Source: Verrucomicrobiota bacterium
Lineage (GTDB): Bacteria; Verrucomicrobiota; Verrucomicrobiia; Limisphaerales; UBA9464
Assembly (NCBI GenBank): GCA_017309115.1
Contig: JAFLEF010000020.1
Location: 47,034 to 111,033, forward strand
Direction of reading: 5' to 3'
Length of the DNA stretch: 64,000 nucleotides
This document shows, in pieces, positions 8,870 through 9,990 of the stretch; the first letter of the stretch is position 1, and each line of letters starts with the position of its first letter. The notes under the pieces were generated by a model that did not search any database, was not told where the DNA came from, and saw only the letters and a list, made by a program, of their open reading frames with translations. A program made the position numbers and the translations under genes.

Positions 8870-9901
8870 GTGACGCGACCGCTTTTCGCCGCCCTGCTGG
8901 GATTGCTCGGGAGTCTGTTCGCCGGCTGCACGCCCAGCGGATTCGTCGCCAACCAGTTCCTGCGCGCTCCAAAATCCTTCCCCAAGGTGGTCGCTCCCCA
9001 GCCCCGCGTTTACTTCAGCTTTCCCGATCAGGTCACCGATACCCTGCCGGAACAGCTGGCCACTGTGGGTGACCCGCCGCTGACCCTCGCCTACCGACTC
9101 GTGCCACCAGGGGACTACGGCGCTCGAATGGTCCTCACCAATCATCAGGCCTACGGCAAATCCTGGCCGCTCTATTGGTTCCCAGCGCATCCCGCCACCA
9201 ACGCCCTGCCCAAGCGGGGCACGGTGGTGTTTCTGCACGGATATGGCCTTGAACACGGAACCCTCATTCCCTGGGCGCTGCAGGCCGCGGGCCACGGATG
9301 GAATGGCGTCGCCGTGGACCTCCGGGGTCACGGCAACTCCGACGGCACGCGCATCACCTTCGGCATTCAGGAGGCCCATGACCTCACGGACCTGATCGAC
9401 GAACTGAGCCGACGCGGTCAGGCCAGTTGGCCGGTTCAAGTCGTCGGCGTTTCCTACGGCGCCGCCGTGGCCCTGCGCTGGGCCAGCCAAGAATCCCGAG
9501 TCGAGCGAGTCGTGGCCATCACGCCTTACGACCACCTGGCCGACGCCATCGAAGGCTTACGCCGCAGCTACGCGTCCTGGTTACCCGCCGGCCTCATCCA
9601 ACGGGCCGCCGAAAAACTCCCCGAGCGCGTCGGCCAGCCTCCAGGGGGACTCGACCCCTTGAATTGGCTCGGACAACACCCCGTCACCGCCCTCTTCATC
9701 GCCGCCGGTTCCGATCCCGTCGCCCCTCCCGAAGCGATCCAACGACTCGCTGCCTGCTCCCCTTCCAGCCGAATCATCAACTTGGAGGAAACCACCCACG
9801 AAATGGCCCCCTTCCGGATCGATCAACTCGCCCAACCAGTCCTCGACTGGCTCGACACCCCGCTGCCCCAAGTCGGCCAAGCGGTAAGCGGTAAGCGGTA
9901 A
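8870..9901 (+). CDS. Alpha/beta hydrolase, predicted lipoprotein
   Basis: 343 residues from a GTG at 8870. An upstream TTG at 8750 would run through an AGCTGAG-type repeat at ~8806-8822 and lacks support. The GTG start gives a clean lipoprotein leader with lipobox FAGC (Cys20). The fold is alpha/beta hydrolase: VFLHGYG oxyanion region, DLRGHGNSDG, nucleophile elbow GVSYG (Ser195), acid Asp282 in AAGSDPVAP and His310 in EETTHEMAPF. It is probably a membrane-anchored lysophospholipase-like or carboxylesterase enzyme. The last residues (AVSGKR) are read from the TAAGCGG tandem repeat, and the stop TAA is the third unit of that array, so the repeat ends the protein. Confidence 0.82.
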   Translation: MTRPLFAALLGLLGSLFAGCTPSGFVANQFLRAPKSFPKVVAPQPRVYFSFPDQVTDTLPEQLATVGDPPLTLAYRLVPPGDYGARMVLTNHQAYGKSWPLYWFPAHPATNALPKRGTVVFLHGYGLEHGTLIPWALQAAGHGWNGVAVDLRGHGNSDGTRITFGIQEAHDLTDLIDELSRRGQASWPVQVVGVSYGAAVALRWASQESRVERVVAITPYDHLADAIEGLRRSYASWLPAGLIQRAAEKLPERVGQPPGGLDPLNWLGQHPVTALFIAAGSDPVAPPEAIQRLAACSPSSRIINLEETTHEMAPFRIDQLAQPVLDWLDTPLPQVGQAVSGKR

Positions 9902-9990
9902 GCGGTAAGCGGTAAGCGGTAAGCGGTAAGCGGTAAGCGGTAGGCGGTAAGCGGTAGGCGGTAGGCGGTAGGCGGTAGGCGGTAGGCGGT
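9879..9990 (+). repeat. TAAGCGG / TAGGCGG heptanucleotide tandem array (15 units)
   Basis: Fifteen complete 7-bp units run from 9885 to 9989: nine TAAGCGG and six TAGGCGG, with a partial unit at the left. The stop of the hydrolase gene is the TAA of the unit at 9899; the TAAs at 9885 and 9892 are out of frame. Each unit holds a stop on the + strand and none on the other, which is why the opposite strand is open through the array. Strand-slippage length variation is likely. Confidence 0.95.

Follow-up and report, generated by a model that had tools for sequence, protein, structure and literature searches.

Heptamer arrays at gene ends of a Verrucomicrobiota genome as probable outer shells of layered, inverted-repeat intergenic elements

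Heptanucleotide tandem repeats distributed across a genome are known from heterocystous cyanobacteria (Calothrix) as STRR heptamers, and the arrays described here resemble them in these respects. STRR heptamers are mentioned by Rehm et al. (2015, PMC4692102), and the portions of that paper considered here describe GGGAATC or GGGGA(C/T)T heptameric repeats of Xanthomonas and Nostoc that are intergenic and present in 2 to 26 copies. These repeats lie in sense within 50 bp of stop codons, some overlapping them, and in antisense upstream of starts, with 70 and 75 cases of inward inverted pairs in two Xanthomonas (PMC4692102). GTAG-tagged REPs and BIMEs form a second class, i.e., palindromic dimers with GTAG ends that often supply a TAG stop (Di Nocera et al. 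2013, PMC3733652). In the parts of that study drawn on here, GTAG REPs are mostly found less than 20 bp from 3′ ends in convergent gaps of the species plotted, are abundant in Opitutus terrae (Verrucomicrobia), and follow, like CGTC REPs, a published rule of stop-adjacent placement (PMC3733652). TAACTGA heptamers of Beggiatoaceae, cyanobacteria, and Bacteroidetes carry forward-strand stops, and forward arrays ending genes are discussed in the source text used (MacGregor 2015, PMC4679880). The heptamer arrays reported below come from a 64-kb stretch of DNA, referred to as the window, and from the genome around it. They are probably the outer shells of a symmetric, layered, inverted-repeat family of intergenic elements that is REP/BIME-like and would have spread by insertion.

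Heptamer arrays in the window and the genome

Two 7-bp units, AGCTGAG and TAAGCGG, had been singled out in an initial annotation as recurring in tandem, and both do so in the window and in the whole genome. The exact dimers AGCTGAGAGCTGAG and TAAGCGGTAAGCGG gave 17 and 14 matches, respectively, in the 64-kb window and 0 matches each in 30 order-1 Markov resamplings of it. Genome-wide (7.53 Mb, overlapping matches counted), the AGCTGAG dimer matched 885 times (491 + 394 by strand) and the TAAGCGG dimer 200 times (118 + 82), with 0 and 1 matches for the corresponding reversed-pattern controls; the reversed pattern of AGTTGAG is a rotation of the same array and hence invalid as a control. Exact arrays hold 2 to 9 copies each, and the tandem 7-bp unit in two or more copies, dispersed in many places, is as described for GGGAATC-type intergenic heptameric repeats. 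AGCTGAG, TAAGCGG, and GGGAATC have identical base composition (G3 A2 C1 T1), and their purine-rich strand is mostly directed away from the adjacent gene, at stops and starts alike.

Exact AGCTGAG arrays with a length of 14 nt or more number 12 in the window. Ten of them are in sense and begin between −20 and +13 nt of a called stop; the exceptions are 3292-3307, with 121 nt between it and the stop it faces, and 49472-49487 in a divergent gap. The features of the window are listed below by coordinates and strand.

3130..3159, plus: AGCTGAG, 4.3 copies, left outer arm, 3 nt past the stop at 3126
3191..3282, unstranded: GTAG-REP-like inverted dimer (GGTGGGGCGA...TCGCCCTACC) between heptamer arms, from sequence and predicted fold
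3292..3307, minus: AGCTGAG, 2.3 copies, inverted right outer arm
9879..9992, plus: TAAGCGG/TAGGCGG array, 16 copies, enclosing the stop of the gene ending at 9901
10175..10197, minus: AGCTGAG, 3.3 copies, enclosing the FdhD gene's stop at 10178
13965..13980, minus: TAAGCGG array ending a 113-aa ORF of doubtful coding status
19060..19082, minus: AGCTGAG, 3.3 copies, 9 nt past the stop at 19092
19772..19787, minus: AGCTGAG, 2.3 copies, overlapping the TAG stop at 19786
34840..34887, minus: AGCTGAG, 3.3 copies, then TAAGCGG, 2 copies, 5 nt past the stop at 34893
36895..36937, minus: degenerate AGCTGAG array at the TAG stop at 36937, then GGTAAGC units and REP dimer; gap of 233 bp, 41 bp in a genus relative (G001)
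40854..40869, plus: AGCTGAG, 2.3 copies, enclosing the stop at 40859; left arm of an element filling a convergent gap
40860..41417, unstranded: whole composite element between convergent stops, with inner GAATCTGGAAAAC...GTTTTCCAGATTC module and REP part; 558 bp, 54 bp in G001
41390..41412, minus: AGCTGAG array, right arm, 5 nt past the stop at 41418; its exact 15-nt run starts 13 nt past
43108..43928, unstranded: composite element between codirectional genes; 821 bp, 12 bp in G001
43891..43935, minus: AGCTGAG, 2.4 copies, enclosing the stop at 43929, then TAAGCGG, 4 copies
49436..49487, minus: layers of AGCTGAG, TAAGCGG, and GAAGCGG, located in a divergent gap with a start 64 nt away (exception)
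53490..53496, plus: single AGCTGAG unit enclosing the stop at 53495
53815..53849, minus: AGCTGAG, 2.3 copies, then TAAGCGG, 3 nt past the stop at 53853
60868..60897, plus: one AGCTGAG unit, then TAAGCGG, 3 copies, 7 nt past the stop at 60860
61099..61135, minus: AGCTGAG/AGTTGAG, 5 copies, right arm in the same convergent gap as 60868..60897, 10 nt past the stop at 61146

The initial annotation had listed 16 gene ends with arrays. Twelve of them (3126, 9901, 10178, 19092, 19786, 34893, 40859, 41418, 43929, 53853, 60860, and 61146) have an exact sense array that measures 14 nt or more and lies no more than 15 nt from the called stop. The other four were 13976, where the stop lies in an array but the 113-aa ORF was rejected by the gene caller, 36937, 35774 (a degenerate repeat), and 53495, which has a single unit, as had been said. 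Stops had been placed within the repeat at six sites; an exact array encloses the stop at 9901, 10178, 40859, and 43929, while 13976 and 53495 were additions of the annotation. A TAG overlapping the array edge, claimed at two sites, was borne out at 19786, whereas the repeat met by the TAG at 36937 is a degenerate AGCTGAGGGCTGAGGG run, with the exact array 27 nt farther on. The array reported near 49440-49487 as an exception in a divergent gap is there, at 49472-49487.

The largest entry in the window's ORF list is a 4291-aa ORF at 21353-34228 on the minus strand. Within the inner module of the 43108-43928 element, 43506-43559 holds six perfect copies of the 9-bp repeat ACCTTCTAC, of which the counterparts at 34391-34625 and 40890-41200 have about two; the six copies are perhaps recent slippage growth.

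Layered architecture of the elements

From outside to inside, the elements consist of (AGCTGAG)n, (GGTAAGC)n, (GGGAAGC)n, and a GTAG-REP-like palindromic dimer with other modules, and this order is mirrored on the far side. The heptamer layers are designated H1 (AGCTGAG), H2 (GGTAAGC), and H2x (GGGAAGC), with module order scored on the same strand between neighbors within 45 nt. H1 came before H2 at a ratio of 54:3 and before H2x at 7:1, H2 came before H2x at 14:3, and the REP module was preceded rather than followed by H2 at 32:0, by H2x at 9:0, and by H1 at 21:4. Mirrored modules read directly in gaps were AGCTGAG arrays, GGTAAGC arrays, and a GGTAGGGCGA...TCGCCCTACC palindromic dimer of GTAG-REP type, with a GGTAGGGATGG module and a GAATCTGGAAAAC...GTTTTCCAGATTC module as further components; k-mer assembly over 504 gaps of at least 60 bp recovered these modules and AGTTGAG in addition. 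A palindrome tagged by GTAG in inverted dimers, as in REPs, was found in the inner module only (GGTAGGGCGA-GGCTCCGCCGAGCC with its inverted partner), and the tag is given as GTAG or GTGG because many copies read GGTGGGGCGA. The heptamer units themselves are direct tandem repeats, not palindromic REPs. At least 94 local matches to the inner module, including itself and its own inverted arms, were found with 40 of 385 candidates scored.

The outermost pair of H1 runs, in 53 gaps with at least two such runs, pointed inward in 36, outward in 2, and along the same strand in 15, i.e., inward inverted pairs are formed as by GGGAATC-type heptameric repeats. Arm-to-arm length ranged over 115-657 bp (central 80% of 39 paired gaps). 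A loose AGYTGAG unit occurs in 128 gaps, a count in which single-unit matches include chance ones, and only 39 of these gaps have an inward H1 pair. Since the elements are symmetric and the arrays are their shells, heptamers are read in sense at gene ends. An origin of the heptamers from 7-bp target-site duplications was rejected, as paired arrays are mostly inverted rather than direct. Copy numbers of the two arms in paired gaps were uncorrelated (rho 0.002) and arm variants unmatched (Fisher p=1), thus giving no sign of selection for arm pairing, and a selected RNA stem between the arms was set aside on this arm-matching test. At C17:58409-58692, another inverted repeat family (CGCAGATTAA...) shares a gap with part of a heptamer/REP element.

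Placement at gene ends and the part played by the stop codon

Placement was scored in a 1.235-Mb sample (the window and 1.171 Mb of the same genome) with genes called by a codon-usage model; array densities in this sample are biased because contigs were picked partly for carrying arrays, and placements are conditional on the gap. AGCTGAG arrays 14 nt or longer numbered 95, with 77 in gaps, 14 at stretch edges, and 4 in called genes (three in sense at the extreme 3′ end, one antisense). Relative to the gene 5′ of them, 52 of the 77 gap arrays were in sense, and 36 of these 52 started within 15 nt of its stop, as compared to a mean of 3.3 (sd 1.7, maximum 11 in 2000) upon random placement and random strand in the same gaps. 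The remaining 25 instead had a start codon 5′ of them, at a median distance of 126 nt and in one case within 15 nt. Arrays near starts (1 observed, 2.8 expected) and antisense arrays at stops (1 observed, 3.4 expected) showed no excess. In the same test, 11 of 37 TAAGCGG arrays were at a stop in sense versus 1.5 expected, a placement like that of AGCTGAG but one layer farther inward. With the whole genome scanned for both units and placement in the sample set against random positions, the sense bias at stops claimed by the initial annotation was upheld, with no excess at starts. The statement that arrays are read in sense only is incomplete, as codirectional gaps hold 19 sense and 19 antisense arrays; the counts are equal because arrays often form inverted pairs. 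The antisense arrays of codirectional gaps sit deeper in the gap than the sense ones, and arrays in sense just after stops with antisense arrays farther off are the pattern of GGGAATC-type heptameric repeats.

Genes were termed array-ended (n=66) when an AGCTGAG, AGTTGAG, TAAGCGG, TAAGGGG, or GAAGCGG array started within 40 nt of the stop. The stop was wholly inside the array in 17, overlapped its edge in 2, lay upstream of it in 46, and lay beyond it in 1. Across the sample, 143 gene 3′ ends have at least one of six motifs between them and the following gene. An outward-pointing motif is met first by 107, within 15 nt of the stop in 68 (H1 44/62, H2 14/23, REP 8/15, and others 2/7), and an oppositely pointing one by 36, within 15 nt in 3. 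The first module therefore abuts the stop whatever its kind. Gaps with a motif had median lengths of 302, 367, and 588 bp (convergent, codirectional, and divergent; n=41, 87, and 23), compared with 77, 62, and 274 bp for gaps without one (n=77, 445, and 89).

As annotated, every sense frame of AGCTGAG and TAAGCGG arrays contains a stop and no antisense frame does (six-frame check). The first reading of these arrays was that they act as, or survive only by acting as, an all-frame translation stop. The frames fit this reading, as does the enclosure of the stop in 17 of the 66 array-ended genes, set against a stop upstream of the array in 46. Of the two parts of that reading, the arrays do look like parts of mobile elements enriched in sense at gene ends; the stop as the cause of placement was not supported, since the same placement is seen with a stop-free unit and with the REP module, and the unit order holds away from stops too. 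The GGGAATC unit has no stop in any of six frames. It was scored in 38 Lysobacterales loci of 80 listed, chosen by name and from related, not fully independent species. Gap arrays numbered 43 in these loci, and a further 6 lay within called genes and 7 at edges. Sense arrays following a stop were within 15 nt of it in 14 of 25 cases, versus 0 of 28 antisense arrays facing a stop and a permutation mean of 2.8 (sd 1.6, maximum 9 versus the 14 observed). The sense-after-stop rule given for GGGAATC in the text used of PMC4692102 is thus reproduced in these loci. The GTAG-REP-like module, when first after a gene, is likewise within 15 nt of the stop in more than half of cases (the 8/15 above).

Unit order within arrays points the same way. 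The two ends are unlike in 18 of the 23 mixed runs made up of GGTAAGC-like units, and stop-bearing units are outside in 15 of the 18. The ratio of runs with TAA-bearing units outside stop-free ones to runs with the opposite order is 11:1 where no stop is near and 4:2 where one is, and because this polarity is also seen away from stops it reflects architecture rather than selection on the stop. Stop-free GGAAGCG arrays were within 15 nt of a stop in 0 of 9 cases compared to 11 of 28 for TAAGCGG (p=0.036), a difference in favor of the all-frame-stop reading, although GGAAGCG is an inner layer by architecture. AGCTGAG and TAAGCGG arrays start up to 30 nt before stops. The idea that only stop-bearing arrays reach deep into genes was dropped, as one of the six in-gene GGGAATC arrays (L251) is in sense about 20-45 nt before the stop.

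Protein ends were compared with the genus relative G001 (1.199 Mb compared; 177 reciprocal best hits, median identity 58%). Reciprocal best hits exist for 30 of the 66 array-ended genes, and 25 of these 30 C-termini agree within 3 aa, versus 87 of 147 controls. In 8 of the 30 the array starts before the stop; six of these genes have a C-terminus that differs by 0 to +3 aa, another differs by +13, and the last, which is poorly aligned (33% identity), by +21. The orthologue comparison proposed with the initial annotation therefore gave no shortened proteins and a few gained residues. With stop-free GGGAATC placed alike elsewhere, stops mostly upstream of arrays, polarity not confined to stops, and proteins not shortened, it is quite improbable that the arrays act or survive as translation stops. 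A related reading treats the shells as a module with stops in all three frames on both inward-reading edges, i.e., a self-tolerating mobile element that on landing in last codons would end translation at once in any frame and so be kept, with families bearing TGA, TAA, and TAG edges (AGCTGAG, TAAGCGG, and GTAG-REP) selected and stacked for that property; we consider it unlikely. The built-in stop may make insertion in the last codons tolerable, and supplying a stop codon seems to be a side effect of the arrays, not their purpose. A striking stop-codon pattern can thus be a by-product of where intergenic elements survive, and stop-free heptamers with the same placement provide a natural control.

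Relatives, spread, and described systems

The AGCTGAG dimer, with 885 matches in this genome, had 0-5 in each of 96 relatives; the REP consensus had 311 here versus 0-6 in 58 relatives, in which the TAAGSGG dimer was found 0-4 times. REP-like composite elements carrying heptamer shells have undergone a lineage-specific burst here, and because they are far more common than in the relatives searched, heptamer spread is testable by strain comparison. These counts also bear on plain microsatellite slippage, in which heptamers would have grown in place from random seeds in neutral 3′ spacers with no mobile element. Arrays of 2-9 exact copies with uncorrelated numbers between arms are consistent with polymerase slippage, to which a bacterial heptamer excess has been tied (Mrazek et al. 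2007, as cited in the text used of PMC4679880), but recurrence of the same few units, the orientation rule, layer order, inverted pairing, and 0-5 copies in 96 relatives make this reading very doubtful.

In the genus relatives G001 and G002 (loci L059, L060, and L062), three of four arrays were in sense 4-21 nt past the called stop and one was inside a called gene. Among 20 stretches from three other families of the order (G066, G058, and G052), 3 of 19 arrays of the same or related units were in sense within 20 nt of a stop and 7 of 19 fell inside ORFs according to a gene caller that had been trained on a different genome; the placement mismatch may partly be a matter of gene calling with a foreign model. 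In contrast to the window's genome, these three genomes (L189-L208) often have AGTTGAG arrays within called ORFs or next to the starts of such ORFs. The reversed control GGSGAATGGSGAAT is itself abundant in the relatives G062, G035, and G017 (53, 21, and 22 matches), so that separate heptamer bursts, based on another unit resembling GGGAATC, may have taken place elsewhere in the order.

Conserved neighbor pairs shared with G001 numbered 39, of which 5 have an array at the stop here. Gaps of these five measured 253, 284, 233, 558, and 821 bp here versus 11, 15, 41, 54, and 12 bp in G001. Among the other 34 pairs, 26 differ by no more than 50 bp and 8 by more: two are much larger here with repeats inside (386 vs 104 and 134 vs 9 bp), two slightly larger here (72 vs 18 and 56 vs 4 bp), and four larger in G001 (25 vs 267, 27 vs 257, 81 vs 286, and 86 vs 206 bp). 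Insertion is read from gap size because spacers are unalignable at 58% identity, with no nucleotide-level empty and filled sites. Module order, inverted pairing, copy number relative to the genomes searched, and larger gaps at conserved pairs are direct observations. A proposed course of events is that elements would have spread by insertion into short spacers between neighboring genes (11-54 bp in the relative), that gene-breaking insertions would have been lost, leaving survivors that abut stops or reach a few codons past them, and that arrays would subsequently have grown and shrunk through slippage. Insertion in the last codons would be tolerable because the outer units happen to hold a stop in every sense frame, and the array does provide the stop for roughly one in four array-ended genes. 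Insertion into tight spacers together with purifying selection would explain closeness to stops, distance from starts, and unchanged proteins.

Candidate enzymes were limited to five Pfam Y1_Tnp matches in the genome. By NCBIfam, scored on three of these Y1 transposases, two were nearest REP_Tyr_transpos but below cut-off (42.8 and 53.6 versus 80) and one was IS200-like above cut-off. Within about 1.5 kb on each side of the five loci, a REP motif occurred only at the IS200-like one, and no link of a RAYT gene to the elements was found over that distance. Around the IS200-like gene (L051 1019-3275), several ORFs share the repeated peptides FAPTGREAIAQGNALG and PGRCPGLSPHAPLG, pointing to a putative further dispersed repeat family.

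The predicted RNA fold of 3120-3312 has an energy of −117 kcal/mol (z −7.5), and a second whole element folded with z −5.7; no Rfam family reached its gathering threshold in the window. A very stable predicted hairpin right after the stop makes a REP-like effect of the transcribed element on mRNA 3′ ends plausible. Consistent with these two folds, with positions directly after stops (convergent gaps included), and with 3′-end roles proposed for REPs in the parts used of PMC3733652, the elements could be a functional 3′-UTR device whose hairpin ends or stabilizes transcripts, by REP-like protection or bidirectional termination, and is kept by selection at gene ends. At C2:73173-73558, an intrinsic-terminator-like hairpin followed by a T run (by eye) has been retained just past the stop, with the element lying beyond it, and this counts against such a device; G001 has a comparable hairpin and T run at the matching gene pair, suggesting insertion of this element downstream of a native terminator. 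In 40800-44000, the single stretch scanned, GC hairpins with a T run, resembling intrinsic terminators, showed no excess (1 versus 3.4 expected). Three codirectional gene pairs with an element between them here have spacings of 11-15 bp in G001, arms are unmatched in variant and copy number, and relatives have few or no copies. A selected 3′-UTR device is thus possible but not likely, and spread of the layered elements by insertion remains the preferred reading.

Heptamers after stops, inverted heptamer pairs, and stop-supplying REPs are all in print in the sources used. Like the GGGAATC repeats (PMC4692102), the arrays have a 7-bp unit, are intergenic, lie in sense near stops, and form inward inverted pairs. 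In contrast, GGGAATC repeats have other units, form G-quadruplexes, contain no stop in any frame, and are described in the portions considered of PMC4692102 with no enclosed GTAG-REP dimer. A quadruplex-capable GGG run is absent from AGCTGAG and TAAGCGG arrays and present in the rarer TAAGGGG variant (18 arrays); because their units have no such run, the arrays are not assigned to the G4-repeat class. TAACTGA (PMC4679880) is similar as an abundant intergenic heptamer with forward-strand stops but in a Beggiatoaceae genome lies mostly forward just upstream of starts, and the text used of that paper describes no layered composite element. The GTAG REP pattern (PMC3733652) fits the inner module, although GTAG REPs are palindromes, not tandem heptamers, and here heptamer shells surround the dimer. 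No published account of heptamer arrays as ordered shells round a REP dimer was found in a search that left most subscription literature aside. In these elements, two repeat classes that are usually kept apart, heptamer arrays and REP dimers, are united in one ordered, layered element.
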